Origin: Euzebyales bacterium
GTDB taxonomy: Bacteria; Actinomycetota; Nitriliruptoria; Euzebyales; JAHELV01
Assembly: GCA_036374135.1 (NCBI GenBank)
Contig: DASUUK010000090.1
Span: 1 to 33,734 of the forward strand
Reading direction: 5' to 3'
Length of the DNA: 33,734 bases
Shown: positions 10,526 to 30,705 of the stretch, one piece after another
How positions within the stretch are numbered: position 1 is the stretch's first letter
Layout of the letters: the number at the start of each line of letters is the position of its first letter
Translations under genes and position numbers: made by a program
Notes under the pieces: generated by a model
Database searches by the model: none
Seen by the model: only the letters and a program-made list of their open reading frames with translations
What the model was told of the DNA's origin: nothing

Positions 10526-10668
10526 CAACCGCTACCGCCTCGCGAGTACACCAGTCGACGGGCCACGCTAGCGTGCCCGGCACATCGTGCGCGCACTGCC
10601 AGGGCCTGCGATGATGGATTGCCGAGGTCCCCGCGCCACGGGACGGCGCCGACGCGGCGAATGAGCAC

Positions 10669-14800: not shown

Positions 14801-14862
14801 ACCTGTCCGCACTGGGCATCGACCCCGCCGCCGACGTCGACGCCCTCCACCTCGGACGCTGA
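11857..14862 (+). CDS. large secreted beta-propeller protein with Ig/cadherin-like domain and FDGSD repeats
   Basis: The protein has 1001 residues. ATG 11857 is preceded by GGGAGGG. A signal peptide ends near residue 33 (AAPPAAAAP). Residues about 45-625 are NHL/SdiA-regulated-like propeller repeats ([60 protein letters not shown]) ending in ENDGRIYEM. About 632-732 is a cadherin/Big_9-like module ([32 protein letters not shown]). A Gly/Pro linker leads to four imperfect repeats (about 747-1001). No sortase signal or transmembrane anchor follows. A TATGAT at 11783-11788 could be a -10. The propeller half is paralogous to the protein at 1-2808, which carries different C-terminal modules. Codon use changes visibly from about base 13735. 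It is probably an extracellular polymer-associated or adhesive protein. Confidence 0.88.
14101..14862 (+). repeat. four imperfect 55-70 residue coding repeats
   Basis: The C-terminal 255 residues of the propeller protein contain four diverged copies of one unit. Each has an acidic start ([29 protein letters not shown]), then a TSG-type turn, a [YHLE]-[FR]-D-x-S-[DA] strand ([37 protein letters not shown]), and an Asp-rich pair before a hydrophobic strand. The last copy is the most degenerate and ends the protein. I recall similar repeats in other secreted bacterial proteins but cannot name a domain. Confidence 0.7.
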
Positions 14863-14868
14863 GCACAG

Positions 14869-15660
14869 GTGATCGTCGAGCTCATCGGGTGCAGCGGGGC
14901 GGGCAAGACCACGCTGATGCGGGCCGTGCAGCGATGCGCGTCGTCGGTCCCGATCACGTCGGCGTGGGATCTGGTGCTGGATCGTCCGGGACGCCGGTGG
15001 ATCACGAGCCCACACGCGATGAACCTGGTCGCCGACGCCACGGCGGTCGGTCCGTTCGTCGCGAATCTGAGCCGCCACGCCGACTTCGTGCGCTTCGCGT
15101 TCCAGCGGTTGTCGCGCCACGCGCCCTCACGGTTCGCCCACCTCAACTACGCCCGCAACGTCGTGCGGCGGGTCGGCATGCACGAGCTGGCCCGCACGGT
15201 GTCGGACGGTCGCATCGTGCTGACCGACGAGGGCGCGACGTTGATCGCCTACCAGCTGTTCGTCTACAGCCGCGTGCCGCCCACCGCGGCCGAGGTCGAG
15301 CGGTTCGCCAGCCTCGTCCCCATGCCCGACGTGCTGATCCACGTGCGGGCACCGTTGTCGGTGCTGGTCGAGCGGGCGGTGGCGCGCCCCGACGGGCGCC
15401 GCGAGCTGACGGGCGCGGACGCCGCGCAGGTCCGACAGCTGCTCGCGCGCGCCGACGACGTGTTCACCGCCCTCGCAGCCACCCCCGCCCTGCGCGACCG
15501 GGTGCTGGTCGTCGACAACCCCTCAGGATCGCTGGCCGACCAGCGCCTGGTCGGTCGCCGCATAGCGGCGACGCTGTCCGACATCGAGACTGGGCACGGT
15601 GCCCTCCCATCCACCGACCTCAGACACAGAACGGCCGAACGTGCTGCCGAAGACCCGTGA
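14869..15660 (+). CDS. P-loop kinase-like protein (thymidylate-kinase superfamily type)
   Basis: The 263-residue protein opens with a Walker A loop, ELIGCSGAGKTTL, at residues 4-16. RIVLTDEGATLIAYQLF near 125 resembles the acceptor/DR region of nucleotide kinases. MPDVLIHVRAPLSVLVERA near 155-172 is the strand before the lid, followed by an Arg-containing segment (RPDGRRELTG). These are the parts of a small P-loop phosphotransferase, but the substrate is not recognisable. GTG 14869 starts seven bases after the propeller stop. The 3' end overlaps the NTase-kinase fusion gene by 20 or 62 bases depending on start choice, so both are co-transcribed. It shares its plan with the protein at 24970-25761, and is the first of four kinase-like proteins in the locus. 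Confidence 0.78.
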   Translation: MIVELIGCSGAGKTTLMRAVQRCASSVPITSAWDLVLDRPGRRWITSPHAMNLVADATAVGPFVANLSRHADFVRFAFQRLSRHAPSRFAHLNYARNVVRRVGMHELARTVSDGRIVLTDEGATLIAYQLFVYSRVPPTAAEVERFASLVPMPDVLIHVRAPLSVLVERAVARPDGRRELTGADAAQVRQLLARADDVFTALAATPALRDRVLVVDNPSGSLADQRLVGRRIAATLSDIETGHGALPSTDLRHRTAERAAEDP

Positions 15661-17113
15661 CCTGCTCGAGCGGTTGAACGACGCCGGCGTCCGGTACTGC
15701 CACTGGAAGAGCAACTGGAACCTGGCCAGCACGCTCGAAGGCGAGACGGACCTCGACCTGCTGATCCACCGCCGCGACGCCGGCCGGTTCCGCGCCCTGC
15801 TGCGCGACCTCGGGTTCGGGCCCGCCATCGAGGCGGGTGTGCCGGCGCTGCCGGCCGTCGAGCACTACCACGCGCTGGACGAGACGAGCGACGACATCGC
15901 CCACGTCCACGCCTACTACCGGGTCATCACCGGCGAGAGCCTGGCAAAGAACTACCACTTCCCGGTGGAGGAGATGCTGCTGACGCACACGCGTCGCGAG
16001 GGCCTGGTCACGCTCCCCAGCGCAGGTGCCGAGCTGATCGTCTTCGTGCTGCGCATGCTGGTCAAGCACACGACCCCGATCGAGCTGGGGCTGTTCCTGC
16101 GGGACACTGACGCGTTCCGGCGCGAGGTCGCGTGGCTGATGACGCCCACCGCGCGCGACGAGGCGCTCGCCCTGCTGCCCGTCTGGTTGCCGCAGATCGA
16201 TGCGTCGCTGTTCGTGGCGGGGTGCGAGGCGCTGCAGCGTCCGGCGCCGATCACCCGTAGGATCGCGCTCGGCATGCGCGTGCGCGCGCGCCTGCGGACG
16301 CTGACCCGCCACCACCCCACCCGGGCACGGGTGTCGGAGGTGGGCAAGTTCACGACGCGCACGAGCCACCGTCTGGCGGGCACCAAGAAGAAGCTCGCGC
16401 CCGGCAGCGGCGGGTTGGTGATCGCGTTCGTGGGGCCGGAGGCCAGCGGCAAGTCGACCGTGCTCGCCGAGGTCCAGCGCTGGCTGGGCGCCCACTACAC
16501 GGTGCGGCGCGTGCACGCGGGCAAGCCGCCGGCGACGCCGGTGACAGCCGTGCCCCACGTGCTGCTCCCGCTGCTGCGAGGCCTGGCACCCAACCAGCGG
16601 TCGACGCGGGTCATGGCCGGCGCGACGACGGCCGTCGGCGACGAGGCCGCATCGACCGACAGCCATCCCCTCGCGTTCGCGGTGCGCTGCGTGATGTTGG
16701 CCTACGAACGCCGCGCGGTCCTGGCCCGGGCGTTCGCGCGCGCCTCCAACGGCGCGGTGGTGCTGTGCGACCGGTACCCGTCGTCGACGCCCGGGGCGCC
16801 CGACGGTGCGCAACTGGACGCGCGGCCGCGCGCAGACGATCCGCTGCGCCGTTGGCTGTGCGCGCTGGAACGGCGGCTGTACGCCGACATCCCCGCGCCC
16901 GACCTGGTGCTCCAGCTCACCGCTCCGCTCGACGTCACGCTGGCCCGCAACGCCGCACGCACCAAGACCGAACCCGAACCGTACGTCCGCTGGCGCCACA
17001 CGTTGGCCGACAGCGTCGCGTTCGACCGGGCGCCGGTGCACAAGGTGAGCACCGACCGCGACATCGACCAGGTGATCAGCGACGTCAAGCAGGCGATCTG
17101 GGACGCGCTGTGA
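15599..17113 (+). CDS. nucleotidyltransferase-like / thymidylate-kinase-like fusion protein (copy 1)
   Basis: The 504-residue protein has two parts. The N-terminal part has RYCHWKSNWNL followed by ETDLDLLIHRRD (residues about 32-60), resembling the uncharacterised nucleotidyltransferases found near surface-polysaccharide genes. The D-x-D is the likely metal site. The C-terminal part has Walker A FVGPEASGKSTVL near 277, the kinase-type motif LCDRYPSS near 389, and an Arg/Lys lid (RTKTEPEPYVRWR). It has the same length and motif spacing as the paralog at 29191-30705. The GTG at 15599 gives a length equal to that paralog; a GTG at 15641 is the alternative, and neither has a clear ribosome binding site. 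The gene ends tail-to-tail with galE. Transfer or phosphorylation of a sugar or lipid in the same pathway is likely but unproven. Confidence 0.8.
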   Translation: MPSHPPTSDTERPNVLPKTRDLLERLNDAGVRYCHWKSNWNLASTLEGETDLDLLIHRRDAGRFRALLRDLGFGPAIEAGVPALPAVEHYHALDETSDDIAHVHAYYRVITGESLAKNYHFPVEEMLLTHTRREGLVTLPSAGAELIVFVLRMLVKHTTPIELGLFLRDTDAFRREVAWLMTPTARDEALALLPVWLPQIDASLFVAGCEALQRPAPITRRIALGMRVRARLRTLTRHHPTRARVSEVGKFTTRTSHRLAGTKKKLAPGSGGLVIAFVGPEASGKSTVLAEVQRWLGAHYTVRRVHAGKPPATPVTAVPHVLLPLLRGLAPNQRSTRVMAGATTAVGDEAASTDSHPLAFAVRCVMLAYERRAVLARAFARASNGAVVLCDRYPSSTPGAPDGAQLDARPRADDPLRRWLCALERRLYADIPAPDLVLQLTAPLDVTLARNAARTKTEPEPYVRWRHTLADSVAFDRAPVHKVSTDRDIDQVISDVKQAIWDAL

Positions 17114-17137
17114 CCCTCGACGCCCGGCGGAGGGTCA
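17111..17137. terminator. hairpin spanning both stop codons of a convergent gene pair
   Basis: TGACCCTC and GAGGGTCA form a perfect 8-bp stem around an 11-base loop. The left arm contains the TGA of the plus-strand fusion gene and the right arm the stop of galE on the minus strand. No T-tract follows on either side. It may act as a compact bidirectional terminator or RNA-stabilising hairpin. Confidence 0.45.
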
Positions 17138-18121
17138 GGCGTCGGCGTAGCCAGCAGGATGGGCGCGGTGCCACCGCCACGCCGTGCGCACGATCTCGTC
17201 CACGCCGGTGATCTCCGCCTTCCACCCGAGCTCCTCGCGGGCACGACCGGGGTCGGCGACGAGCTCGGGCGGGTCGCCGGGCCGCCGCTCGGCGATCTCG
17301 GTCGGGATGGCGTGACCGGTCACGCGACGTGCCGCCTCCACGATCTGCTGCACGCTGTGACCGTGTCCAGTGCCCAGGTTGACGAACAACCCGCGACCGG
17401 GACCCGTCCGGCGCAGCGCCAGCTCGTGGGCACGCGCGAGGTCGGTGATGTGGATGTAGTCACGGACGCATGTGCCGTCCGGCGTCGGATAGTCGTCACC
17501 GAAGATCATGAACCGGTCGCGTTGACCGAGCGCCACCTGCAGCGCGATCGGGATGGCATGGGTCTCGGGGTCGTGGTCCTCACCGCGTGACCCGTCCTCA
17601 GCCGCTCCGGCCGCGTTGAAGTAGCGCAACGCGACGAAGGACATGCCGTACGCGCGGGCGTGATCGGCCAGCGCGCGCTCGATGATCAGCTTCGTGTAGC
17701 CGTAGGGGTTGACGGGCCGCTGCGGAGCGTGATCGGGGATCGGGACGGTGTCGGGCGTGCCGTAGGTGGCACAGGTGCTCGAGAACACCAGGTGACCCAC
17801 GCCCGCAGCCCGCATGGCGCCGAGCAGCGTCAGGGAGCCGGCCACGTTGTTGTGGTAGTACATCATGGGATCCGCGACCGACTCGGCGACGAGCGCGTAC
17901 GCGGCGAAATGCATCACCGCGTCGATCCGCTCGTCGCCCATGACCGCCCGCATCGCGGCGCCGTCGTGCAGCGACGCCTCGACGAGCGGCAGCCCCGCCA
18001 CCGACCTCGCGTGACCACGTGACAGATCGTCATAGATCACGACCTCGTGGCCGCGGTCGACCAGGTGCCACGCCGCCTCGCTGCCGACGTACCCCGCCCC
18101 GCCCAGCACCAGCACCTTCAC
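17135..18121 (-). CDS. galE: UDP-glucose 4-epimerase
   Basis: This 328-residue extended short-chain dehydrogenase interconverts UDP-glucose and UDP-galactose (or their N-acetyl forms). The NAD-binding motif is LVLGGAGYVGSEAA at residues 4-17. HFAAYALVAESV, FSSTCATYG and the catalytic Y-x-x-x-K in NPYGYTKLIIE follow, then LRYFNAAGA and GTCVRDYIHITDLA, all diagnostic of GalE. The GTG start at 18121 has GGAGG about ten bases upstream. It is the last gene of the long minus-strand run, 37 bases after the Wzz-kinase gene. It supplies a galactose-type donor for the repeat unit. Confidence 0.95.
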   Translation of the reverse strand: MKVLVLGGAGYVGSEAAWHLVDRGHEVVIYDDLSRGHARSVAGLPLVEASLHDGAAMRAVMGDERIDAVMHFAAYALVAESVADPMMYYHNNVAGSLTLLGAMRAAGVGHLVFSSTCATYGTPDTVPIPDHAPQRPVNPYGYTKLIIERALADHARAYGMSFVALRYFNAAGAAEDGSRGEDHDPETHAIPIALQVALGQRDRFMIFGDDYPTPDGTCVRDYIHITDLARAHELALRRTGPGRGLFVNLGTGHGHSVQQIVEAARRVTGHAIPTEIAERRPGDPPELVADPGRAREELGWKAEITGVDEIVRTAWRWHRAHPAGYADA

Positions 18122-18158
18122 CGCAGCACCGCCTCCCTCCGCATCGCGTCGGCGGCCC

Positions 18159-20069
18159 TCACATCGCCGTCTCGGACTGCGGGGCGTGGTGCGGCCCGTC
18201 GCCGTTGCTGCGCGGCACCTGGTCGGCGTCCAACTGCGCGTACTCCACGACGTTCGGCCTCAGCTCGACGCCGGTGTCGACGGGCACCGAGGCGTCGGTG
18301 TAGACGTAGCCGGCAAGCCGGACGCCCATCAGCTCCAGGCGACGGCGCAGCTCGCGAAGGTCGGTCAGGCTGGAGCCGTGCGGCACGACCACGAGCGCCC
18401 TGTCGACCGCCCGGAACGCCGCGGCCTGCGTGATCTCGAGCACCGACGGCAGGTTGATGACCACGAGGTCGTGGTGATCCGCGAACCGGTCGAGCACCGC
18501 TCGGACCTTCGCCGATCCGAAGACGTCGGGTAGCACCGCGTGGTCCGCGCCGACGCTGAGCACCGAGACGGTGGTGCCGTCACGGATCTCGATCCATCCG
18601 GCCACCTCGTCGACGGTCACCGACCCGTCGATCAGGTCGGCGAGGCCCGCGGCGGGATGGTGCCCGTACAGCTCGCTCACCCGCCGGGACACGTCACGTC
18701 CGGTGAGGTCACCGTCGACCAGACCGACGCGCAGGCCGGCCTGGCCGGCGGCGAGTGCGACGTTGACGGCCACGAGCGCGCTGGCATCCCCGCCCGTTGC
18801 CGAGACGCACGCGACGACCGAGGTGGGCTGCGAGGTCGCGCCGTACAGCTGCGAGACGTTGGTACCGGCACGACCATCCACGGGCCGGCGACCGAGCGCG
18901 GCGGCCAGCGTCCGGTAGGCGTTGGCCGACCCGGAACGTGGCTCGTCGAGGACGGGCACCTCCGCAGCCACACCACCGTCGCGTCCGCGACCACCCGGCC
19001 GCCACCGACGTCGGGTGCCGGCATCGCGCACGTCGACGAGCAGCGGAACGCCCAGGACGCCTGCCGCGGTCCGCGGATCTTCGACGCGCCGCGAGCGCTG
19101 ACTCACCACGTACGCCAACGCCGCACCGATCAGTGCGCCCAGCACCGTGGCGACGAGCGTCGCGGAGGTGAAGGGCACGCCCTCGCGGCGCCCCCGCCCT
19201 GCCGGGGCGAAGAACGCGACCGCGTTGCCGTTGAGCTGGGCCTCGACCTCCGCGTCGGTCCGCTGCGCCGTCAGCTCGCCGAGCATCCTCGCGCTGTCCC
19301 GCTGGCGACGGAGCAGCCGCCGGATGGTACCCGTGAGCGGGGCGTCGGAGCTGATGCGCGCGCTCAACCGGGTGCCCAGCTGGTCCGCCCGCTCGGCCAG
19401 CTCCTTGGTCGCCGCCAGCCGCCCGGACCCGCTGTTCTGCGCGCTGGCGCTGTCGCGCAGCCCCGCCAGGTCCGAGACGGTCCTGGCGATCTGCGCGTCG
19501 GTCGCGTGCGGCGCGTCCTCGACGGTGCGGGACCTCGCCACCCGGTTCTGCAGCGAGCGGATCTCGTTGACCGCCGTGGCGATCGCCTTGTCGAGCTGAT
19601 CGATCGTCGCCTCCGCACTGTCGGCGCGGGCCGCGCTGACGACGTCCTCGTAGGCCAGGCGCAGGGCCTCGGCGCCCGTTCGCGCGGTCTCGGCGTCCGC
19701 TGCCGCGAACCGCACCTCGACGAAGTTGCTCTCCGAGCTGGAGGTGATGGTGCGACCTTCGGTGATCTGACCAGCGGTGAGGTCGGCCGGTGGCGTGAGC
19801 GTGGGCGCAAGCTGACTGGCGCGTTCGGCCACGATGTCGGACTGCAGGATGGCGACCTGGTCGGCCACGTAGCGTTCGGGGTCGGTCGACTGGCTCTCGG
19901 CGGCCGTGTCCTGGACGATCAGGCTGGTCTTGGATACGTACCCGGCGGGCCCGGTCAGCGCGTACGCGGCACCGAGCAGGCCGAACACCAGCGCGCACCC
20001 GATCACGAGCAGCGGATGCCGCCGGATCGCGGTCAGCGGATCCGTCTCGGTCGGTTGGTCAGGTGTCAT
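18159..20069 (-). CDS. fused Wzz-type chain-length protein and degenerate bacterial tyrosine kinase (BY-kinase)
   Basis: The 636-residue membrane protein controls polymer length or export in related systems. Residues about 18-40 are the first membrane helix, followed by an extracytoplasmic coiled-coil-rich region (IDQLDKAIATAVNEIRSLQNRVA). A second helix lies near 301-322 (ATLVATVLGALIGAALAYVV). The cytoplasmic part has the MinD/BY-kinase fold, but its key motifs are altered. The Walker A position near residue 420 reads SATGGDASAL instead of GEGKST. The A' motif is VGLVDGDLTGRD. The Walker B position reads LVVINLPS, with Asn for the usual Asp. The C-terminal tail has a single Tyr and no tyrosine cluster. 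ATP-dependent autophosphorylation is therefore doubtful. The start ATG overlaps the flippase stop (ATGA). Confidence 0.87.
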   Translation of the reverse strand: MTPDQPTETDPLTAIRRHPLLVIGCALVFGLLGAAYALTGPAGYVSKTSLIVQDTAAESQSTDPERYVADQVAILQSDIVAERASQLAPTLTPPADLTAGQITEGRTITSSSESNFVEVRFAAADAETARTGAEALRLAYEDVVSAARADSAEATIDQLDKAIATAVNEIRSLQNRVARSRTVEDAPHATDAQIARTVSDLAGLRDSASAQNSGSGRLAATKELAERADQLGTRLSARISSDAPLTGTIRRLLRRQRDSARMLGELTAQRTDAEVEAQLNGNAVAFFAPAGRGRREGVPFTSATLVATVLGALIGAALAYVVSQRSRRVEDPRTAAGVLGVPLLVDVRDAGTRRRWRPGGRGRDGGVAAEVPVLDEPRSGSANAYRTLAAALGRRPVDGRAGTNVSQLYGATSQPTSVVACVSATGGDASALVAVNVALAAGQAGLRVGLVDGDLTGRDVSRRVSELYGHHPAAGLADLIDGSVTVDEVAGWIEIRDGTTVSVLSVGADHAVLPDVFGSAKVRAVLDRFADHHDLVVINLPSVLEITQAAAFRAVDRALVVVPHGSSLTDLRELRRRLELMGVRLAGYVYTDASVPVDTGVELRPNVVEYAQLDADQVPRSNGDGPHHAPQSETAM

Positions 20070-21637
20070 GTCGCCCGGCCCCCTTCGGCCGCCTCGACAG
20101 CCGTGTCAGCGTAGCGCTTCGCCACACCCGTCGGAGCATCGACGTCGTCGCGTCCGCGCGCCGCCGACAGCCCCACGGCCGGCACACGACCCCCCAGGCC
20201 CGGGATCGCGAGCCGTCCCAGCTCCAGCGCCTCGACCGCGGATCGTCGATCCAGGACCCACAGGGCGAGCACGTAGGTCGCCGCGCCGGTCGTGACGAGC
20301 ACGACGACCTGCCACACCAGCCCGACGTCCACCACGACCTGCTTGGTCGCGACGACCGCCCCGACCATCAGCCCGGACGCGACCGCGGGTCCCACCAACT
20401 GGCGCATGACGGCGGTGGGCCGCAGACCGATGAGCTTGTGGACCGCGTAGAACCACGCCGGGCTGACGGCGAACGTGACGACGGCCAGCGCTGTGGCGAC
20501 CGCCAGCACCCCCCACCGGACAGCGACCGCGAACGAGGCGACCTGCGCGACCGCCGTGACGCCCATCAGGACGACGCGCCACGACGGCTTGCCCAGCGCC
20601 TTGAGCACGGTGGGGTTGAGGAACCCGATCGACGTCGCGAGCCCGGCGAGGCCGAGCATGCGCATCACCGGGATGCTCTCGCTCCAGCCCGACCCGAACA
20701 TCAGCCGCGTGGCCTCGGGGGCGATCACCACGAGCCCGAGGAACGTCGGGAACGTCACGAGCGCGGCCAGGCGCATCGTGCGGTAGTACAAGCGACGGAC
20801 CCGCTCGTCGTGGTCCTGCACGCGCGAGAACGTGGGGAACGCGACGGACCCGATGACGGCGGTGCACATGTTGATCAGCAACCGCAGCACCCGGTAGGCG
20901 ACGACGTAGAAGCCCAACTGGGTCGGCCCCAGGAACAGGCCGATCATGAAGTTGTCGCTCTGTGTGTTGGCCAGCCGCAACGCGCGGAACCCGACGATGT
21001 TCGCGCCGAAGGGCAACATCTCCTTGACGTGCGGCCACGAGAACGACAGGCGCGGGCGCCAGTCGCTGGCGACCCACAGCGTGATGACGGCCACCACCTC
21101 GACGGTCAGCGTCTGGACGACGAGGCTCCACACGCCGGCGTCGAGCAGCGCAGCGGCGATGCCCGCGCCGCCGCCGACGACGACCGACACCAGCGACCGC
21201 AGCGTCAGGCTCGCGAAGGCGAACGTGCGGGTCAGCAGCGCGCGCTGGACCGTGCTCAGACCACTGACGGTCAGGGTGAGCGACAACGCCGCCAGGACCG
21301 GGCCGAGCGCCGGGTCACCGAACAGCGTGGCGATCACGGGCGACGCAGCCCCCAGCAGCACCGTGAGCACGACGCCGAGCGTCACGCTCGTCCAGAACGC
21401 GCCGTTGACGTGCTCGTCGTCGATGTCGGGCCGCTGGATGATCGCGTCGGCCATGCCCTGGTCGGCTGCGATCTTCAGAACGCTGGTGAACACCGTGGCC
21501 AGGGCGATGAGACCGAAGGCCTCCGGCGCGACCAACCGCGCCAGGACCGCGAACACGACCAGCGTCGCGATCTGGTAGCCCCAGTTCTCGAGCGCCGTCC
21601 AGTAGACGCCGCGCGCGGCCAGGCGACGGAGGGTCAT
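20066..21637 (-). CDS. lipid-linked repeat-unit flippase (Wzx/TuaB-like, MOP superfamily)
   Basis: The 523-residue polytopic protein would flip the undecaprenyl-linked repeat unit to the outer face of the membrane. It begins TLRRLAARGVYWTALENWG, the typical N-terminus of the TuaB/WzxC-type polysaccharide transporter family. VLARLVAPEAFGLIALATVF, LPFGANIVGFR and LGPTQLGFYVVAYRVLRL also match that family. About a dozen hydrophobic segments are present. ATG 21637 is chosen over a GTG at 21727: it matches the family start and lies 20 bases after the upstream glycosyltransferase stop, whereas the longer form would add an Arg-rich tail inside that gene. The C-terminal 60 residues are charged and Ala/Gly-rich. 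It overlaps the Wzz-kinase gene by four bases. Confidence 0.92.
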   Translation of the reverse strand: MTLRRLAARGVYWTALENWGYQIATLVVFAVLARLVAPEAFGLIALATVFTSVLKIAADQGMADAIIQRPDIDDEHVNGAFWTSVTLGVVLTVLLGAASPVIATLFGDPALGPVLAALSLTLTVSGLSTVQRALLTRTFAFASLTLRSLVSVVVGGGAGIAAALLDAGVWSLVVQTLTVEVVAVITLWVASDWRPRLSFSWPHVKEMLPFGANIVGFRALRLANTQSDNFMIGLFLGPTQLGFYVVAYRVLRLLINMCTAVIGSVAFPTFSRVQDHDERVRRLYYRTMRLAALVTFPTFLGLVVIAPEATRLMFGSGWSESIPVMRMLGLAGLATSIGFLNPTVLKALGKPSWRVVLMGVTAVAQVASFAVAVRWGVLAVATALAVVTFAVSPAWFYAVHKLIGLRPTAVMRQLVGPAVASGLMVGAVVATKQVVVDVGLVWQVVVLVTTGAATYVLALWVLDRRSAVEALELGRLAIPGLGGRVPAVGLSAARGRDDVDAPTGVAKRYADTAVEAAEGGRAT

Positions 21638-21657
21638 GACTGATCGGTCGCTCTCAC

Positions 21658-22845
21658 TCAGCCGCCCACGGCGACGTGGCGGGGACGCCGAGCGGAGCCT
21701 GCCCGCTCCGCGGCGACGGTGGACCACAGCTGCAGCGTCCGCTCCAACGTGGCGTCCAGTCCGAATGCGACGCTGCGGCGACGGGCGGCCTCACCCAGCT
21801 GTCGCCTGCGCTCGACGTCGTCGAGCAGTGTGTCGATCGCGCACGCCAAGGCGTCCACGTCGCCCCGAGGCACGATCATCCCCCCGTCGCCCACCGCATC
21901 GCTGCCGAAGACATCGGTCGCCACGATAGCGGCGCCGCAGGCCATCGCCTCGAGGAGGACCAGCGACATGCCCTCCCAGCGCGACGGTGCGATCACGATG
22001 TCCGCGGCCCGCAGCTGTGGGGCGGTGTCGGCCGCCTTGCCGTGCCACTCGATGCGGTCGGTCACACCGAGGGACCTTGCGAGTGACCGCAGGTGTGCGG
22101 CCTCGCCGACGGGCTGCTCGTCGCCCACCAGCCGCAGGCGCGCATCGGGGGCGCGCAGGCGCGCGAGCGCCCGGATCGCCACGTCCTGGCCCTTCTGCCG
22201 GCTCAGCCGCCCGACGCACACGATCAGGGGGGCCGTGGGGTCGCGCGGTGCGACCGGACCGTCGGGACAGAAGTGGTCGCGGTCGACTCCGTTGGGGACG
22301 ACCGTCATGTGGTCGGTCCGTGCACCCAGCACCGCGCGCCCGTGCGCGGCCTCGTGCTCGGAGACCGCGACGATCGCCTCGCAGCGGTCGCTGAGCCCGC
22401 GCTCGACCAGCCGGTAGAGGCCAGCGAGGCGTCCGCCCACCTGCCACGACCAGGAGTGCGGGGTGAACACGACGGCCGGTCGCCTACGCTTCGGCAGCGA
22501 CGCGATGGCGGCGCGGCCGACCGCGCCCGCCTTCGACGAGTGCAGGTGCACCACGTCGCGGTCCACAGCCAGGCGCCGCAGTGTCGCGACCGCGCGGACG
22601 TCGCGCGGCGCGGGGCGACGGTCGAGCTGTAGCGCGACATGCGACGCCCCGGTCGCTCGCACCCACTCGGCGAGCGGACCCTGGTCGCTGTCCGGGCACG
22701 CGACCACGACGTCATGTCCCGCCGCGACAGCGGCCTCGACCTGCTGGCGCACGCACACCGCGACGCCGTACTCGACGGGTTGCGACACGATCAGCACGTC
22801 GAGGCGCTCGCGCCCGCCGAACGCCTCCTGGACGTCAGTTGTCAT
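21658..22845 (-). CDS. GT4-family glycosyltransferase
   Basis: The 395-residue GT-B enzyme retains the GT4 signatures. The N-terminal acceptor domain has VEYGVAVCVRQQVEAA and VVHLHSSKAGAVG. VVPNGVDRDHF leads into the donor domain, with VGRLSRQKGQDVAIRA and the E-x7-E segment PSRWEGMSLVLLEAMACG near 300-317. It probably adds one sugar to the lipid-linked repeat unit at the cytoplasmic face. ATG 22845 begins TTDVQEAFGGRERLDVLIVS. The gene is separated by 132 bases from the upstream sulfotransferase, so it may have its own promoter, and lies 20 bases from the flippase. Donor and linkage cannot be deduced. Confidence 0.92.
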   Translation of the reverse strand: MTTDVQEAFGGRERLDVLIVSQPVEYGVAVCVRQQVEAAVAAGHDVVVACPDSDQGPLAEWVRATGASHVALQLDRRPAPRDVRAVATLRRLAVDRDVVHLHSSKAGAVGRAAIASLPKRRRPAVVFTPHSWSWQVGGRLAGLYRLVERGLSDRCEAIVAVSEHEAAHGRAVLGARTDHMTVVPNGVDRDHFCPDGPVAPRDPTAPLIVCVGRLSRQKGQDVAIRALARLRAPDARLRLVGDEQPVGEAAHLRSLARSLGVTDRIEWHGKAADTAPQLRAADIVIAPSRWEGMSLVLLEAMACGAAIVATDVFGSDAVGDGGMIVPRGDVDALACAIDTLLDDVERRRQLGEAARRRSVAFGLDATLERTLQLWSTVAAERAGSARRPRHVAVGG

Positions 22846-22977
22846 CGCCCTACCATCACACCTCGGCCGCCCGCATGGCGGTTCCCTGATGGACAGGTGC
22901 GCGTCACCATCCCGTCACACGCCAGTCCCCTTCAGGCGCACTCGGTGTCCGAGCGCGGGCCGGGTCGAACCGCTGGT

Positions 22978-23868
22978 TCAGCTGTCCGACGACAGCCAGT
23001 GCTGCAGGTCGCGCCCGATCAGCGCCTCGGTCCCGGCGATGTCGGCGCGGAAGTGGTCGGTCAGCTGCGCCCGCAGCGGGTCGGGCAGGGCGGGCGGGCG
23101 CTGGAGGTTGGCCGTACGGACCCGCCGTGCCAGGTTGCCGAGCCGCCGGGGGATCCACGGCTCGACCATCCGCTTGATGCGCTTGCTGGTCAGCACACGC
23201 TCGAACGCCATGTTGGCGGGCACACCGCCGACGTTGTGGGGGGTGTCGAGATCCGGCACGAACGTGTCGTCGACGCCCAGCGCGCGGTAGATCGCCTGCA
23301 CCGCCGCGGTGGTGTCCGACCGCAGCTCGTCGAACAGCTGGACGTGGATCTGCTCGGGCCGATAGGCGGCGTAGTAGCGCGTCAGGTGCTGGTGGTACCT
23401 GCCGACCCGCACCCAGTGGGAGTCCGCCTGCGCCCAGGGTGCGTCCACGGTCAGGTCGCGCTCGGGATCGAGGCGCCGGCCGCGCGTGCGCAGGTACATC
23501 TGGTAGTCCGAGTACGCACGGTCGACGGGGTTGCGCAGCACACAGACGATCTGGGCGTCCGGCAGCAGGCCCGCCATCCGCCCGGCGGCCTGCGGACACT
23601 CCAGGTAGATCGGCGAGATCTCACCGACCGCGGTGGCGCCGTCGGCGTCGGCGAACAGCCGCTCGTAGGCGTCCAGGCTGCGGACGGGGAACCGGTGCAG
23701 CTGCGGATCGCCGTAGCGCAGCCGGCCCGCGTCGTCGACGCCGTACGCGAAGAAGTTGGTCTCCTTCAGCGCGCTCATGTGGACCTGCGGGTGCTCGGCG
23801 AGGTACCAGTACAGCGCCGTCGTTCCGGCCTTTGGCGCGCCGATGACCACGAACGTCGGCAGCATCAC
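22978..23868 (-). CDS. sulfotransferase, NodH/heparan-sulfotransferase type (second of three)
   Basis: The 296-residue PAPS-dependent sulfotransferase is the clearest of the three. The 5'-phosphosulfate loop is VIGAPKAGTTALYWYL (about 8-23), followed by the family's KETNFF segment near 36. The 3'-phosphate site is VLRNPVDRAYSDYQMYL near 107-123. GRYHQHLTRYYAAY and IHVQLFDEL follow, as in carbohydrate O- and N-sulfotransferases. GTG 23868 and ATG 23865 overlap the upstream glycosyltransferase stop, so the two are coupled. It lies between two GT4 genes, strongly suggesting that the acceptor is the repeat unit or a precursor. Downstream of its stop, CTCGG-tgt-CCGAG at 22941-22953 may be a weak terminator. 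Confidence 0.92.
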   Translation of the reverse strand: MMLPTFVVIGAPKAGTTALYWYLAEHPQVHMSALKETNFFAYGVDDAGRLRYGDPQLHRFPVRSLDAYERLFADADGATAVGEISPIYLECPQAAGRMAGLLPDAQIVCVLRNPVDRAYSDYQMYLRTRGRRLDPERDLTVDAPWAQADSHWVRVGRYHQHLTRYYAAYRPEQIHVQLFDELRSDTTAAVQAIYRALGVDDTFVPDLDTPHNVGGVPANMAFERVLTSKRIKRMVEPWIPRRLGNLARRVRTANLQRPPALPDPLRAQLTDHFRADIAGTEALIGRDLQHWLSSDS

Positions 23869-24986
23869 ACCGTGTCGGCGGCCGCCCGCGCCTCGCGGTA
23901 CACGGCGTCGATGCCGGCGTGCATCACGGGCAGCGAGTAGCGGGTGAGCACGTGCTCCCTGGCGCGCTTGCCCAGATCACGCAATGCGCTGGGCGACATC
24001 TGGCGGTGCCGCGTGAGCTGCCGGGCCACCTCCGCGGCGTCCCCGACGGGGACCAGCGCGACGAAGTCGGCATCGTCGACCAGTTCGCGGTGCGGGGGGA
24101 TGTCCGACAGGATCACCGGACACCGCGCTGCCATCGCCTCGATCACCGCGACGGGCAGGCCCTCGCCGTGTGACGTCGACACCATCACGTCGGCGGCAGC
24201 GCACCGGACGAACACCTCCTCACGCGGGACCAGCCCGGTGAGCGTGACACGGTCGTCCAGACCCAGCTCACGGATGCGCGCGCGGATGGTCCCCTCGAGC
24301 GCGCCGGCACCGATCAGCACCAGACGGCTGCGGTCGTCAGCCGTCGCCGCGAACGCGTCGAGCAGTGTGGCATGGTCCTTGACCGGTTCGAGTCGGTTGA
24401 CGCACACGACGGTGAACACGCTGTCGTCGCGGGTGACCGGCGTGGCGTCCAGCGCGCGATCGACGCGGTCCATGTCAGCGGCGTTCTGCACGACCCGCCA
24501 GCGGCCACGCACCAGCCGCTTGGCGAGCCGCGGCATGCTGTCATAGGCGGCTCGGCTGCAGAACACCAGGCGGGTGAACCCTGCCAACGCGATCAGCATG
24601 AGCGCCTGGTTGCGCAGTGAGTAGTCGTGGAACGAGTCCTGCACGGTGTACACGAGCGCGGGCCGCAGTCGTCGGTAGCGCAAGGTCGCCAGGAGGGTCA
24701 CGATGACCAGCGCGCCCGTCTGCGGCGCGTGGACGTGCACGACGTCGTATGGTCCGCCGTCCAGCGCCGAGCGCAACGCACGCACGAAGCCCGCGAGCGA
24801 CCCGTCGCCCGGGAACAGCGCGATCGCCGGCGGGGGCGTCAGCTTCGGCTCGAGGTACGTGCAGATCGACAGGTCGCGCACGCCGACCATCGGCAGGCAG
24901 TGCTCGTTGTACTGGCCGTTGGCCTCGCCGAGGTTCAGGATGACGTGCAGGACGCGAAGCTGTCGGTCGTCACCGTCGCGTGTCAC
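23865..24986 (-). CDS. GT4-family glycosyltransferase
   Basis: The protein is about 373 residues. GT4 features are LRVLHVILNLGEANGQ near the N-terminus, YDVVHVHAPQTGAL, VVCVNRLEPVKDHATLLDAF at the start of the donor domain, and the E-x7-E segment STSHGEGLPVAVIEAMAARC. GTG 24986 is chosen because it has GGAG eight bases upstream and leaves only nine residues before the first beta strand; the frame stays open to 25082 but the extra residues are Arg/Pro-rich and unlike the family. It overlaps the upstream P-loop kinase by 17 bases and the downstream sulfotransferase by a few bases, so all three form one translational unit. Donor and acceptor are unknown. Confidence 0.9.
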   Translation of the reverse strand: MTRDGDDRQLRVLHVILNLGEANGQYNEHCLPMVGVRDLSICTYLEPKLTPPPAIALFPGDGSLAGFVRALRSALDGGPYDVVHVHAPQTGALVIVTLLATLRYRRLRPALVYTVQDSFHDYSLRNQALMLIALAGFTRLVFCSRAAYDSMPRLAKRLVRGRWRVVQNAADMDRVDRALDATPVTRDDSVFTVVCVNRLEPVKDHATLLDAFAATADDRSRLVLIGAGALEGTIRARIRELGLDDRVTLTGLVPREEVFVRCAAADVMVSTSHGEGLPVAVIEAMAARCPVILSDIPPHRELVDDADFVALVPVGDAAEVARQLTRHRQMSPSALRDLGKRAREHVLTRYSLPVMHAGIDAVYREARAAADTV

Positions 24987-25761
24987 GGGTGTCTCCGATG
25001 TCCGGGGCCGGACGTGGCCCCTCCTGTATCCATGTCCTGTCGGCGGTGAGCTCGGCCACCAGCTGCGCAACATCCATGGCACTGGTGTCGAAGCGTCGCA
25101 CCGCCGGCGCGCCCGCCGCCGCGATGCGGTCCAGGACCTGGCCGAAGAGCCGGCGGTAGCGGGTGATGAACTGCAGCCCGACCTCGCCGGCGCCCTTGAC
25201 CGTGTGGGCCTGCGGTCGCTGGTCGATGCGCGCTCGCAGCACGGCGTCGGGTGCGTCGAGCCACACCACCGCTGTCAGCGTCCGCAGCCACCGGGACAGC
25301 ATCGTGTCCCACCAGCGTTGGAACGCCCGGGTCGTCGTGACGCCGCGGTCCTGCGCCCTGAGCCGCACGAGGGCGTAGATCGGTCCCTGATCGAGCACGA
25401 CCACGCCGTCGATCCCGGCGTACCGGCGGCGCAGGAACCGGTCCCAGGCCGTGACGTATGCCATGAGCTTGACGTCCGGCCAGCTCAGCCGCGGCCGGCG
25501 CACCACGTTGGCGGCCAGGACCGGCAGCAGACGCGGGAGCCCGCGCAGCGCGTGGGCCAGGTGTGCCGGGCGTCGGGTACGGATGAACGCGCCGCGCCGG
25601 TAGTGGTCGTGAGCGCACAGCGCCGCGGACAGCGTCGACTTGCCGGCCCCGGCGACACCGAGGATCTCGACGAGCTGCGGGGAGCCGGCGGCGCGCCACG
25701 AGGACGCGGGCGTCCGCGCCGGTCGTGCCGCGCGTGGCATCCGCGCTGTCGTCATGGTCAT
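24970..25761 (-). CDS. P-loop kinase-like protein (thymidylate-kinase superfamily type)
   Basis: The 263-residue protein has Walker A VEILGVAGAGKSTLSAAL near residues 31-48 and GVVVLDQGPIYALVRLRAQ near 122-140, the equivalent of the kinase DR region. WLDAPDAVLRARIDQRPQAH near 165-184 includes the lid arginines. Its plan and length match the protein at 14869-15660, though sequence identity is low. The ATG at 25761 has GGGAG five bases upstream and is preferred over a longer GTG form to 25842. TATGCT at 25804-25809 on this strand may be its -10. It heads the seven-gene minus run ending in galE. Phosphorylation of a sugar, lipid or nucleotide in the polysaccharide pathway is inferred from context only. 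Confidence 0.78.
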   Translation of the reverse strand: MTMTTARMPRAARPARTPASSWRAAGSPQLVEILGVAGAGKSTLSAALCAHDHYRRGAFIRTRRPAHLAHALRGLPRLLPVLAANVVRRPRLSWPDVKLMAYVTAWDRFLRRRYAGIDGVVVLDQGPIYALVRLRAQDRGVTTTRAFQRWWDTMLSRWLRTLTAVVWLDAPDAVLRARIDQRPQAHTVKGAGEVGLQFITRYRRLFGQVLDRIAAAGAPAVRRFDTSAMDVAQLVAELTADRTWIQEGPRPAPDIGDTRDTRR

Positions 25762-25972
25762 CGACTCCCGCCCGCTCGTCGCTGCCCCGGCGACGTCCGC
25801 GCAAGCATAGCGGTGGTCGACGGGCCCATCGGCGCGGACCACGTGGCCATGACGACGCGCTACGATGCCACGTCATCGGGTCGTGTCGGGCGGGACGCAG
25901 TGGTCGAGGCGGCCATGAAGCCGGCCAGGATCGGGTCGATCGACCACGGACGACGTCACCGGGGAAGCTCCA

Positions 25973-27073
25973 GTGGAACGCACGCGATATGCGGTCTTCG
26001 CGCCGAACATGGCGGGCGGCGGCGCCGAGCGCGCGGCCGTGCAGCTGGCCTCGGGGCTCGCCCAGCGCGGGTTCCACACCGACCTCGTCCTGGCGTCGGC
26101 GGACGGGCCGCGCATGGCGGAGGTCCCCGACACCGTCGACGTGGTCGACCTCCGGGCGCGCCGGGTCCTGACCAGCGTGCCCGCACTCGTGCGCTACCTG
26201 CGCCGCACGCGCCCAGCGGCCATGGCGTCGGTGCTCGACCATGCCAACGTCGCCGCACTGGTGGCCGCGCGCCTCGCCGGATCCCCGACCCGGCTGGTCG
26301 TCGTGGAGCAGAACAACCTCAGCTCGGCGGCGGGCAACGGCAAGTCCCGGCGCGACCGCATGATGCCCAGGTTCGTGGGACGCTTCTACCCCTGGGCGCA
26401 CTGCGTCGCCGGGGTGTCGGCCGGCGTCATCGACGACCTCCGGTCGCTGATCAACACCGTTCCCGACGAGCGGTACCGCGTCATCCACAACCCGATCGTC
26501 ACGCCCGAGCTGATCGCGAAGGCACAGGCGCCCGCGGCCCATCGCTGGTTCGATCGCGACGAGCCGGTGTTCGTCGCGGCCGGCCGCCTGCGCCCACAGA
26601 AGGACTTCCCGACCCTGATCGACGCGTTCCACCGTGTGCGGTCGACGCGTCACGCACGCCTGATGATCCTCGGCGAGGGCCCGGACCGGACGGCGCTGGA
26701 GGCGCAGATCCGGCGTCTGGGCCTCGACGACGACGTGGAGCTGCACGGGTACACCGACAACCCGTACCGGTTCTTCGCGCGGGCCACGGCGTTCGTGCTG
26801 TCGTCGCGGTGGGAGGGGCTGCCCACCGTGCTGATCGAGGCGCTCAGTTGCGGCGCCCCGGTGGTCGCGACCGACTGTCCCAACGGGCCGGACGAGATCC
26901 TGGCCGGTGGCCGGTACGGGCGGTTGGTGCCGGTGGGGGACACGGCGGCGATCGCGGCAGGGCTCGAGGCCGCACTCGACGGCGAGCTGTCGCGCCCGCC
27001 TGAACACAGCTGGCGTCCGTACACGGTCGACGCGGTCGTCGACGACTACCTCGACGCGTTCGCCGGGAGCTGA
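25973..27073 (+). CDS. GT4-family glycosyltransferase
   Basis: The 366-residue GT-B enzyme has FAPNMAGGGAERAAVQLASG at the N-terminus, a common GT4 opening. VVEQNNLSS, VIHNPIV, VAAGRLRPQKDFPTLIDAF and LMILGEGPDRTALE follow, then the E-x7-E segment SSRWEGLPTVLIEALSCG. TDCPNGPDEIL resembles galactosyl- and GalNAc-type GT4 members such as those in O-antigen loci. The GTG start has GGGGAAG upstream. The stop overlaps the polymerase start (TGATG), so the two are coupled. It is divergent from the P-loop kinase across about 210 bases that should hold both promoters; only weak -10 candidates (TACGAT at 25861) are visible there. Confidence 0.92.
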   Translation: MERTRYAVFAPNMAGGGAERAAVQLASGLAQRGFHTDLVLASADGPRMAEVPDTVDVVDLRARRVLTSVPALVRYLRRTRPAAMASVLDHANVAALVAARLAGSPTRLVVVEQNNLSSAAGNGKSRRDRMMPRFVGRFYPWAHCVAGVSAGVIDDLRSLINTVPDERYRVIHNPIVTPELIAKAQAPAAHRWFDRDEPVFVAAGRLRPQKDFPTLIDAFHRVRSTRHARLMILGEGPDRTALEAQIRRLGLDDDVELHGYTDNPYRFFARATAFVLSSRWEGLPTVLIEALSCGAPVVATDCPNGPDEILAGGRYGRLVPVGDTAAIAAGLEAALDGELSRPPEHSWRPYTVDAVVDDYLDAFAGS

Positions 27074-28338
27074 TGATGCGACGGGCGGCCTACTGGGCGG
27101 CGGTGCTGTTCATCTTCACGGTCCCGTGGGAGGTCGCGATCCGCGTCGGCGCGGTCGGCCGGGTGAGCCGGGCGGTGGGCCTGCTGGTCGCCGGGCTGTG
27201 GGCGCTGTCGGTCATCATGCGCGGTCACAGCCGGCCGCTCGACCGCTTCGTCAAGGCCTACTTCCTGCTGGTGCTGTGGAGCGGCCTGACGATGTTCTGG
27301 ACGATCGACGTGCACGCCACGCTGGGCGGGTTCATCACCTACGTCCAGATCTTGGGCATGGTGCTGGTCGTGCTGGACCTGTTCGAGACGGAACGGCGGG
27401 TCGAGACGGCGCTCCAGGCCTTCGTCCTCGGTGCCTACGTGTCGTGTGTCAGCATCTTCGTCAACTGGGTCAACGCTCCCCCGACGGACTTCCCCGAGCA
27501 CCAGCGCATCAAGGCACTCGGGTTCGAGGTCGACGGCATCGCACTCATCATCGCCGTGGCGCTGCCCGCGGCCTGGTACCTGGCGACCGGCCCGCCCGCG
27601 GACCGGTTGCCGCGCGTCCTGGTCGTGGCCGACATCGCGTACGTCCCGGCGGGGGTCTTCGCGCTGGTGCTGACGGGTACCCGGGGTGCCGCGGTGGCCA
27701 GCCTCCCCACGGTCGTCTTCGTCGCCTGGACGTTGCGCCACGCACGCCGGAACCGCCGGCTGGCCGCCTGGGCGATGGTGGGAGCCGCGATCGTCGGCGT
27801 GGCCTTCTTGGTCCCTCGCGAACCGTTGCAGCGCATCACCGGGACGGTGAGCGACGTCGTCGGCTCCGACAGCCTGAGCGGCCGCAAGGAGATCTGGCAG
27901 GAAGGTGTCGACATCTTCCTCACCCATCCGGTCGGCGGCGTCGGCCTCGATGCGCACCGAGCGGCGGTGTCAGCCGGCAAGGAGGCACACAACACCGCGC
28001 TGTCGGTCCTGGTGGAGACGGGCATCGTCGGCTTCGTGCTTCTGGTCGCAGTGATCGCCGGCGTGGCCGTCCGCGTCCGGCAGCGGCGTGGGTGGGCCGC
28101 GTGGTACTGGGGCGCACAGCTCACGGCCATCCTGCTCGGCGCGATGTCGCTGTCGTTGGAGGACCGCAAGGCCGTCTGGATCATGGGGTCGTTGGCGGTC
28201 GCGAGTGCGACGGCAGCGCGCCGACGCGAGGACGCACGACCACCGCCCTCGGACCTGGATCTGGCGCACGTCGACGACGTGGACGGCGGCTACGCCGTCG
28301 TGCGGTCGGCCGCGCCCGTACCGTCGATCCCGTCGTAG
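27073..28338 (+). CDS. O-antigen polymerase/ligase-like membrane protein (Wzy type)
   Basis: The 421-residue protein has about ten hydrophobic segments and is predicted to polymerise repeat units on the outer face of the membrane. The O-antigen ligase/polymerase family region is seen in SLSGRKEIWQEGVDIFLTHP, VGGVGLDAHRA and AHNTALSVLVETGIVGFVLL. GTRGAAVASLPTVVF also fits, including the conserved TGTRGA arginine loop. The last 50 residues are hydrophilic and acidic (DLDLAHVDDVDGG). It is coupled to the upstream GT4 and converges on a sulfotransferase. In a Gram-positive-type cell a Wzy-like role is more likely than an LPS ligase role. Confidence 0.9.
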   Translation: MMRRAAYWAAVLFIFTVPWEVAIRVGAVGRVSRAVGLLVAGLWALSVIMRGHSRPLDRFVKAYFLLVLWSGLTMFWTIDVHATLGGFITYVQILGMVLVVLDLFETERRVETALQAFVLGAYVSCVSIFVNWVNAPPTDFPEHQRIKALGFEVDGIALIIAVALPAAWYLATGPPADRLPRVLVVADIAYVPAGVFALVLTGTRGAAVASLPTVVFVAWTLRHARRNRRLAAWAMVGAAIVGVAFLVPREPLQRITGTVSDVVGSDSLSGRKEIWQEGVDIFLTHPVGGVGLDAHRAAVSAGKEAHNTALSVLVETGIVGFVLLVAVIAGVAVRVRQRRGWAAWYWGAQLTAILLGAMSLSLEDRKAVWIMGSLAVASATAARRREDARPPPSDLDLAHVDDVDGGYAVVRSAAPVPSIPS

Positions 28339-28356
28339 GACGCGCCCGGACCTACG
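28334..28356. terminator. small hairpin spanning both stop codons of a convergent pair
   Basis: CGTAGG and CCTACG form a 6-bp stem with an 11-base loop. The TAG stops of the polymerase gene (plus) and of the sulfotransferase gene (minus) lie within or against the two arms. The arrangement matches that at 17111-17137, with the same loop length but a shorter stem. No T-tract is present. Confidence 0.3.
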
Positions 28357-29194
28357 TCAGGAGCGTCTCGACGGCCGGTCGCGTGCCCGGACGGCGATAC
28401 AGCGACAGCAGCGGACGGTAGACGCCGTGCTGACGCATCCGGCTGAGCGCGATGTTGCGCCGGTTGAAGCGCTGATCGGCGCGCCGATAGTCGGCGACCG
28501 CGGCGTCCAACCGGGATCCGTACGCCCGCTGCAGCCGCGGGTACAGCTCCTCGGTGACATGGCGGTACAGCACCAGATCCTGCTGGTTGGCCTCGGTCAG
28601 CATCTGCCGGGTGCGCTCGTTGGCCAGCAGGTCGGTCGCGATGGTGGTGCGCTTCGCCACGTTGACGCGTCGGTAGCTGATGTCGAGGTCGCGTGCGCGC
28701 AACGCCTGCAGCAGGATCATCGACTCGTCGAAGCGCTCGGCCAGTCCCACGAACATCTGACGTCGCTCGATCACCCGGATCGCCTCCTGGGCGTCGGCGA
28801 TGCCGGCGATCCGGCGGGTCTGGGCGTCGCGGAACCAGTCGCGTTCGATCCACTCGTCGAACGCGACGTCCTTGCCGCGGTGGTCGATGTGGTACTGGTA
28901 GCGCGATGCGGCGGTCTTCAGCGGGTCGCGCACGAAGGTGAGGTACGCGAGCTCGGTGTCGGCGACGCCCAGGTCGACGTGTCCAAAGATGCGGTGACCG
29001 GCGATGCTGCGCAGGCGCGGGTAGATGGTGCGGACGCGGCGCAGGTCCTCCGCCGAGAACGGTGGATCCCGCCATGCCGCGTGCCACGGCTCGACGTCGC
29101 AGTGCCGAGGTCCGTAGGAGCTGCGCAGCATGTACCGCACGGTGCTGCCGGCGGTCTTGTTGATGTGGACGAAGACGAGCATGCGACGGCTCAT
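28352..29194 (-). CDS. sulfotransferase family 2-like protein (third of three)
   Basis: The 280-residue protein has LVFVHINKTAGSTVRYML at residues 6-23, the binding loop of Golgi-type (family 2) sulfotransferases such as chondroitin and uronosyl 2-O types. Later come FGHVDLGV, YLTFVRDPLKTAASRYQYH (3'-phosphate site) and FDEWIERDWFRDAQTRRIAG. The remaining 130 residues are helical and less conserved, with VGLAERFDESMILLQAL resembling family 2 enzymes. ATG 29194 overlaps the stop of the NTase-kinase fusion (ATGA). The uronosyl-type resemblance fits the nearby ugd, but acceptor specificity is inference. Confidence 0.87.
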   Translation of the reverse strand: MSRRMLVFVHINKTAGSTVRYMLRSSYGPRHCDVEPWHAAWRDPPFSAEDLRRVRTIYPRLRSIAGHRIFGHVDLGVADTELAYLTFVRDPLKTAASRYQYHIDHRGKDVAFDEWIERDWFRDAQTRRIAGIADAQEAIRVIERRQMFVGLAERFDESMILLQALRARDLDISYRRVNVAKRTTIATDLLANERTRQMLTEANQQDLVLYRHVTEELYPRLQRAYGSRLDAAVADYRRADQRFNRRNIALSRMRQHGVYRPLLSLYRRPGTRPAVETLLT

Positions 29195-30705
29195 GCCAGC
29201 GACGCCCAGATCAGCGCCTTGATCTCGGCGACCACCGCCGCGGGCGGCTGGCCAGCGTCGACGACGTGGGCGCCGGTGCCGCTCCAGTCGATGTCGTAGA
29301 TCTCGGTCGCCCTCGCGACGACGTAGTCGTGCGGTTCGTCGATCTTGCGGCGGGCCGCCTCCAGCGGGTCGAGCCGCAGCACGATCGCAAGGTCGGGTGG
29401 CACCACACGCTCGTGGTAGTGCTGTTCGAGGCGGACGAGCCACCGCAGCAGCCGGCCGCGGTCGTCACCGTCGGTCAGGCGGGCGATCTGAGGCACGTCC
29501 GTCTGCCGCAATGCGGGGTGGGGGAACCGGTCCGAGATGACGATGCTGCCGCTGGCGGCCGCACGGCTGGCGCGCCGGTACGTCAGATACCGGTCCCTCG
29601 CCTTGCACGCGAACCACAGCAGCCTCCGGTACTCCGTGGCCGACGGATCGCCGCCATCCCCCGGCCGTGAGCGCGACATCGCTGGTGGACCCGTCAGCGT
29701 GGGGACGGCGACGCCGGCGATCTTCAGACCGCCGCGGACCGCGTAGGTGGTCGCCGACCACGGCGGCTTGCCCAGGTGCACGGTGACGACGTCGAAGTGC
29801 TCCTCCAGCCACGCACCGATCTCGCGCAGCGCCGTCGTCTTGCCAGCGCCGTCGCCGCCGATGATGGCGATGATGGCGCCGCCGCCGTCCAGGCGGTAGC
29901 CCCTGCGACCCAGCGTGCGTCGCCTGACCGACAGCGCGACCCGCCGCCACAGACGCACCACCGCATCGACCGATGGGCTTCGCCGGGCGTGCGCCTGCAG
30001 CCGCGTCTCCATGCGCCGGCCGACCGCTGCGGTGCGCGCCAGCGATGCGGTGCCCGACGCGACGTCCTCCGCGGCGGCGAACAGGTCCCGCCCGACGAAG
30101 CCCAGGTGCCCATCGACGACGGCGTCGACGTCGTCACGCGTGATCAGCTCGCGCAGGTGTGCGTGCTCCTCACGCTCCGACCGGGAGGGGCGTGGTCGGC
30201 TGCGCCTGGCACCGGTCCACACCATCTCGTCGATCACCGCGTACTTGAGCACCATGCGGATGACCAGCAGGACGTACTCGAACGCAGGAGCGGGTGTCGG
30301 CAGCACGCTGGTCTTCGACGCCGAGGCGAGGAACGGTTCCTCGATCGGCAGGCGGTAGTTCTTCGTGCGGTCGTGACCCACGATCAGCTGCCGGTGGGCG
30401 TGCACGTGCACGAAGCGGTCAGCGGCCGCGTCGTACGCGAAGTAGTGCGCCACGCCCGGCGGTGACGTCGCCTGCGGGCGGACGGCGCCGACGAAGCCGC
30501 AGCTGTCGAGCACTCGCCGGAAGTCGCGCACGTGCCGGCGGGAGACCAGCAGGTCCAGATCGGTCTCCGCCAGTTCCGCGCGTCGCAGGAACCGGTTGCT
30601 CTTGAAGTGACAGTACGCAACACCGGCCACGTCCAGTTCCGCCGCGAGCCGCTCGACGAGCGGCGCCGCCGATGCCTGCTCCGGGCGCACAGCCCCCACG
30701 CGCAC
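29191..30705 (-). CDS. nucleotidyltransferase-like / thymidylate-kinase-like fusion protein (copy 2)
   Basis: The 504-residue protein is a paralog of the one at 15599-17113. The N-terminal part has AYCHFKSNRFL and ETDLDLLVSRRH, then HYFAYDAAADRFVHVHAHRQ and KNYRLPIEEPFL, parallel to copy 1. The C-terminal part has Walker A IIGGDGAGKTTALREI near 280, VTVHLGKPPW (copy 1: RRVHAGKPPA), the kinase motif ISDRFPHP near 389, and a lid containing ARRKIDEPHDY. Identical length and spacing with clear sequence divergence indicate an old duplication or separate acquisition. GTG 30705 has an excellent AAGGAG seven bases upstream. The gene is coupled to a sulfotransferase downstream. Confidence 0.82.
   Translation of the reverse strand: MRVGAVRPEQASAAPLVERLAAELDVAGVAYCHFKSNRFLRRAELAETDLDLLVSRRHVRDFRRVLDSCGFVGAVRPQATSPPGVAHYFAYDAAADRFVHVHAHRQLIVGHDRTKNYRLPIEEPFLASASKTSVLPTPAPAFEYVLLVIRMVLKYAVIDEMVWTGARRSRPRPSRSEREEHAHLRELITRDDVDAVVDGHLGFVGRDLFAAAEDVASGTASLARTAAVGRRMETRLQAHARRSPSVDAVVRLWRRVALSVRRRTLGRRGYRLDGGGAIIAIIGGDGAGKTTALREIGAWLEEHFDVVTVHLGKPPWSATTYAVRGGLKIAGVAVPTLTGPPAMSRSRPGDGGDPSATEYRRLLWFACKARDRYLTYRRASRAAASGSIVISDRFPHPALRQTDVPQIARLTDGDDRGRLLRWLVRLEQHYHERVVPPDLAIVLRLDPLEAARRKIDEPHDYVVARATEIYDIDWSGTGAHVVDAGQPPAAVVAEIKALIWASLA

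Follow-up and report, generated by a model that had tools for sequence, protein, structure and literature searches.

LicD-type phosphocholine transferases are enzymes of the nucleotidyltransferase (NTase) fold that decorate surface glycans via phosphate. A kinase and an NTase-like protein are described as working in sequence on a single substrate in the biosynthesis of the lasso peptide pseudomycoidin, in which PsmK phosphorylates a serine and PsmN is required for the attachment of one or two hexoses to the phosphate; PsmN has been considered either as a glycosyltransferase or as carrying out a nucleotidylation first (PMC9266682, PMC8498205). In E. coli, yghR, yghS and yghT lie in a sphingolipid region together with yghO and the ceramide genes (PMC9386255), and the sphingolipid locus of Caulobacter brings together a lipid kinase, a flippase candidate, LptF2/LptG2 and nucleotidyltransferases (PMC11324152). 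Here we analyse a contig of 33,734 nucleotides from a Euzebyales bacterium (DASUUK010000090.1, referred to below in its whole length as the window), which carries two genes that each join an NTase-like domain to a domain of the thymidylate kinase fold. We propose, tentatively and at somewhat below even confidence, that the window encodes two parallel versions of one module, consisting of the NTase-like domain, a kinase of the YghR/YghS/YghT type and a small P-loop partner protein, and that this module would modify a lipid-linked repeat unit before it is flipped. The module appears from its sequences to be assembled from known parts and to be previously unstudied, its function being a prediction. 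Searching the literature for this fusion, for the name PF14907 or for proteins resembling thymidylate kinase in Wzx loci returned nothing relevant.

The two genes are found at 15599..17113 on the + strand (copy 1, FUS1) and at 29191..30705 on the - strand (copy 2, FUS2). When 29191-30705 is read on the + strand it contains internal stops, and the open reading frame of copy 2 is that of the - strand. In both fusion reading frames the GC content by codon position follows the pattern of real genes (the window is 70% GC), and the start of copy 2, GTG 30705, is preceded by AAGGAG. A first-pass annotation, made from the sequence alone, described the two as paralogs, and they are indeed homologous from end to end: BLASTP gives 31% identity over 511 columns (159 bits, E 2e-47), and the similarity is therefore beyond chance. 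Both copies contain every motif that it listed, namely YCH[WF]KSN, ETDLDLL, DR[YF]P and a Walker A. It also gave both proteins as exactly 504 residues. This is true of copy 2, but copy 1 reaches that length only from its longest start, GTG 15599, and that frame overlaps the upstream gene PL1. Because the start of the copy 1 orthologs in loci L003 and L004 corresponds to the later GTG 15641, right at the end of the PL1 gene, copy 1 is probably 490 residues long, and we rejected the matching lengths as meaningful; they are probably a coincidence. In the tree, copy 2 falls in a clade apart from the copy-1 clade. The presence of two divergent copies in one locus, also pointed out earlier, is old, as the two clades co-occur in several genomes, with separate partners.

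The NTase-like domain occupies 15641..16384 (+) in copy 1, where it has a KSN motif and a DLD motif (D51, D53), and 29908..30705 (-) in copy 2, for which the structure model has a pLDDT of 85. On sequence comparison it is a divergent relative of the Pfam family NTP_transf_5 (PF14907). The two window copies score 13.7 and 18.7 bits (E 0.047 for copy 1 and 0.0014 for copy 2) and do not reach the cut-off of 31.2, and a search of the source genome with PF14907 gave no match because both lie under the search threshold. One family member (L124:2095-3408) scores 31.2 bits, which is the cut-off itself. A profile of nine N-terminal halves matches canonical NTP_transf_5 with a probability of 87% and E 4e-6 in a profile-profile comparison, the alignment covering the K-[GS] motif, the DxD strand and the next strand with its conserved His. 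The order of these motifs is thus common to both. The DxD metal-binding pair is present in 24 of the 24 aligned NTase domains. The third acid of the canonical V-[DE]-h-H motif, however, is His in both window copies and His, Asn or Gln in close relatives; a distant Ensifer protein seemingly retains the canonical form. The window copies thus differ from NTP_transf_5 in their scores below the cut-off, in the replacement of the third acid by His/Asn and in the fused kinase. The top structure matches of the copy 2 model are mainly pol-beta-type NTases (OAS, Cid1, ANT(2''), LnuA), none of them with E <0.001, and a pol-beta-type fold is therefore likely rather than proven. The sub-cut-off Pfam match, the profile-profile alignment and these mostly pol-beta-type fold matches agree with the earlier suggestion that the N-terminal half is nucleotidyltransferase-like.

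The kinase domain lies at 16406..17110 (+) in copy 1 (Walker A GPEASGKST, DRYP) and at 29194..29889 (-) in copy 2 (Walker A GGDGAGKTT, DRFP). A structure comparison of the C-terminal half with solved thymidylate kinases (E 2e-8, TM score to the target of about 0.7) confirmed the predicted likeness to thymidylate kinase. The domain retains the Walker A, A-x-x-R and DR motifs. The scores against curated families are nevertheless far under the cut-offs: 12.8 and 19.2 bits against 27 for the Pfam thymidylate kinase family (PF02223), and, in NCBIfam, 12.0 and 18.7 against 83.25 for TIGR00041 and 23.9 and 19.5 against 193 for NF005923. Neither fusion protein reaches any Pfam or NCBIfam cut-off. In thymidylate kinases, the S-AYQ and REPGGT regions contact TMP. 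Here DRYP replaces the DRY-S-AYQ region and GKPP replaces the REPGGT loop, so that the likeness extends to the fold, the Walker A and the DR motif but not to the conserved TMP-contact regions. Given also that the source genome has a canonical thymidylate kinase gene at another site, a true thymidylate kinase was rejected.

The kinase domain is homologous to YghR, YghS and YghT of E. coli, with E-values from about 1e-4 to 1e-31 depending on the method (phmmer included). A profile of the family kinases recovers the three proteins at E 1e-25 to 1e-31 over approximately 220 residues, which is the whole kinase domain. The E. coli genes adjoin a flippase-like gene and LptF/LptG. They therefore share with the fusions a homologous kinase and an adjacent flippase-like gene, but lack the NTase domain and belong to a sphingolipid-gene region and not to a Wzx/Wzy glycan locus (PMC9386255). 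Of 5426 complete E. coli genomes, 4558 have a largely intact yghQRST region; the sphingolipid genes are present in E. coli B. A literature search found few papers that name YghR, YghS or YghT. RefSeq gives yghS and yghT (L083 5069-8833; L134 3844-16814) as dTMP kinase, which is probably an over-annotation.

Each fusion has a small P-loop protein as a partner. PL1 (14869..15660, +), a kinase-like protein of 263 residues with a Walker A GCSGAGKT and a DEG motif, adjoins copy 1, and PL2 (24970..25842, -), the counterpart of the copy 2 partner, with a Walker A GVAGAGKS and a DQG motif, sits between the two copies. PL1 neighbours the copy-1 orthologs in L003, L004 and L116; the PL2 type adjoins the copy-2-type fusions in L003 and L004, and adjoins the fusion in L005-L007. 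The gene order in L003 and L004 is FUS2–PL2–glycosyltransferase–PL1–FUS1, and it is on this basis that a partner is assigned to each fusion. PL1, PL2 and PL3 are mutually related by profile comparison. A PL profile, trained on eleven sequences and with nine of the loci found lying outside the training set, detected a partner in 18 of the 19 genomes counted (the exception is G045) and in 0 of 72 control loci at E 1e-15; the count left out the distant homologs of Ensifer and Novosphingobium, likewise without PL, and G299, which has the PL–kinase form only.

The first-pass annotation described the fusions, which are one part of a larger module. The fusion is real, but it is not invariant, and what is conserved is a set of NTase, kinase and small P-loop protein in changing fusions. 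Relatives were found in Actinomycetota, Acidobacteriota and one alphaproteobacterial plasmid, in a sample that consists mostly of metagenome-assembled genomes, is small outside two phyla and was analysed with simple gene calling. The order is Wzx–FUS–PL in the Acidobacteriota (L005-L007) and Wzc–FUS–PL–Wzx on the plasmid, from Chelatococcus (L047). Chains of PL1 and kinase without the NTase occur in L119, L123, L125, L127 and L131, and L129 has PL1, NTase and kinase in a single chain of 762 residues; in the tree the PL1–kinase proteins lie inside the copy-1 clade, and the triple fusion is its sister. Those PL–kinase genomes for which sufficient sequence was available (G100, G143, G173, G289) have a further fusion that retains an NTase domain. 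A Wzx flippase (Polysacc_synt_3, E 3e-65 and 2e-62) carries the kinase domain in G035 and G045, where the NTase is a separate gene with only a decayed kinase remnant that has no Walker A. Every locus with a decayed kinase half (L124, L126, L129) has another kinase domain that is intact. G035 also has a fusion of a GT4 glycosyltransferase with a PL domain, and G003 a fusion of PL with an APH phosphotransferase; the PL–APH protein of L120 (11337-13319, -) has 661 residues. The single chains of Wzx and a YghR/S/T-type kinase, in L124 (3421-5763, -) and L126 (10259-12511, -), have about 750-780 residues.

The window is a Wzx/Wzy polysaccharide locus. It encodes a Wzz-type co-polymerase with a P-loop kinase part (18159..20069, -), the Wzx flippase (20066..21727, -; Polysacc_synt_3, E 1e-88), a Wzy polymerase/O-antigen ligase family protein (27073..28338, +), three GT4 glycosyltransferases, an initiating sugar transferase, a UDP-glucose dehydrogenase, an epimerase and three sulfotransferases. 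The fusion is associated with such surface-glycan loci more generally: a core glycan-assembly gene lies within 1.5 kb in 14 of 21 fusion loci (two of the 14, the window and L047, supplied the reference proteins and so match by construction), compared with 3 of 42 loci with weak kinase hits and 2 of 30 canonical NTP_transf_5 loci. It is thus not found mostly outside glycan loci.

On the basis of the flippase and glycosyltransferase fusions, we place the activity at the lipid-linked Wzx/Wzy repeat unit, in the cytoplasm and just ahead of flipping by Wzx. The sequences themselves show the identities of the domains, the conserved partner, the domain reshuffling and the linkage to genes for flippases and glycosyltransferases; for the substrate, the order of steps and the product, we infer the following. 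The kinase domain would phosphorylate a hydroxyl on either the glycan or the lipid that anchors it, and the NTase-like domain would then move a nucleotidyl or phosphoglycosyl-type group onto the phosphate or a sugar hydroxyl, the outcome being a phosphodiester substituent on the glycan. The P-loop partner may provide a second phosphotransfer or an ATP-driven step. The sequence of phosphorylation and then transfer is plausible by analogy with PsmK/PsmN, with the gene setting of YghR/S/T and with the sphingolipid locus of Caulobacter. The likeness to PsmK/PsmN is by description only, and there are differences: PsmK is an HPr-kinase-type enzyme and its substrate is a peptide (PMC9266682, PMC8498205). 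The comparison with LicD-type transferases also has its limits, since neither copy 1 nor copy 2 has a LicD Pfam match. If the proposal is correct, it gives a function to a previously uncharacterised kinase family that includes YghR/S/T, and predicts a phosphate-based modification step linked to flippase transport. An extension of it, which we regard as doubtful, is that of a recombining, hitherto undescribed phospho-decoration system in at least three phyla, in which a YghR/S/T-type kinase, a modified NTase and a P-loop kinase tag lipid-linked glycans with a group based on phosphate, the tag being required by the flippase and serving as quality control of Wzx export, with YghR/S/T as the E. 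coli relatives.

Several observations weigh against a modification of the repeat unit. The change of the third acid to His/Asn means that nucleotidyl transfer may be altered or lost, leaving possibly a weak or regulatory NTase; the structure matches to the NTase fold have weak E-values; and copy 1 is without its NTase in several genomes, so that the copy-1 version would appear to work without one of its own. The altered acid would also suit a regulatory module that gates polysaccharide export, either by AMPylating or phosphorylating a protein (Wzx, Wzz or a glycosyltransferase) or as an NTP-sensing switch. We consider this unlikely. The Wzx–kinase fusion and the fact that the P-loop partners belong to no named enzymatic family would fit such a role, but the kinase retains the Walker A, A-x-x-R and DR motifs typical of small-molecule kinases, and the loci already contain Wzz/Wzc-type kinases for regulation.

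That a kinase and an NTase are found on a single chain in a glycan locus could alternatively indicate a salvage and activation enzyme, in which the NTase would convert a sugar phosphate produced by the kinase into a nucleotide sugar, as in the bifunctional fucokinase/pyrophosphorylase. This is unlikely: we know of no pol-beta-type NTases that make nucleotide sugars, and neither the kinase–flippase fusion nor the loss of the copy 1 NTase in several genomes would be expected. More generally, the domain reshuffling favours action on the substrate of the flippase over synthesis of a soluble nucleotide sugar. The flippase–kinase fusion, together with the sphingolipid-gene surroundings of YghR/S/T, would fit a kinase that phosphorylates undecaprenol or another lipid as a carrier for the flippase pathway, with the NTase as an accessory. 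We hold this to be quite unlikely, as it leaves the NTase unexplained, no predicted membrane part was noted in the kinase domain, and to our knowledge there is no polyprenol kinase of the thymidylate kinase fold. It is very improbable that the C-terminal half is a genuine nucleotide kinase supplying dTDP for dTDP-sugars; its fold and the public dTMP kinase labels of yghS and yghT would be in keeping with this, but the low family scores, the DRYP and GKPP in place of TMP-contacting regions and the canonical enzyme elsewhere in the genome all argue against it.

The three sulfotransferase-family genes of the window (9572-10528, 22978-23868 and 28352-29443, all -) suggest that the polysaccharide of this Wzx/Wzy locus is sulfated, and a similar locus with a sulfotransferase has been described in Actinoplanes (PMC13390465). 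Sulfation is not supported as a role of the module itself, because we detected no sulfotransferase in L005-L007 (Acidobacteriota) or in L047 (the Chelatococcus plasmid). Two large proteins of SdiA-regulated/NHL type with PKD or bacterial Ig repeats flank the locus (1-2808, -; 11857-14862, +), and relatives of these also border L003, L004, L119 and L120. Finally, some distant reading frames (L030, L034, L041, L061 and L064) match Thymidylate_kin above the cut-off, and in L030, L034 and L041 this is preceded by a weak NTP_transf_5 match. The NTase–kinase architecture may thus be wider than the fusion family.

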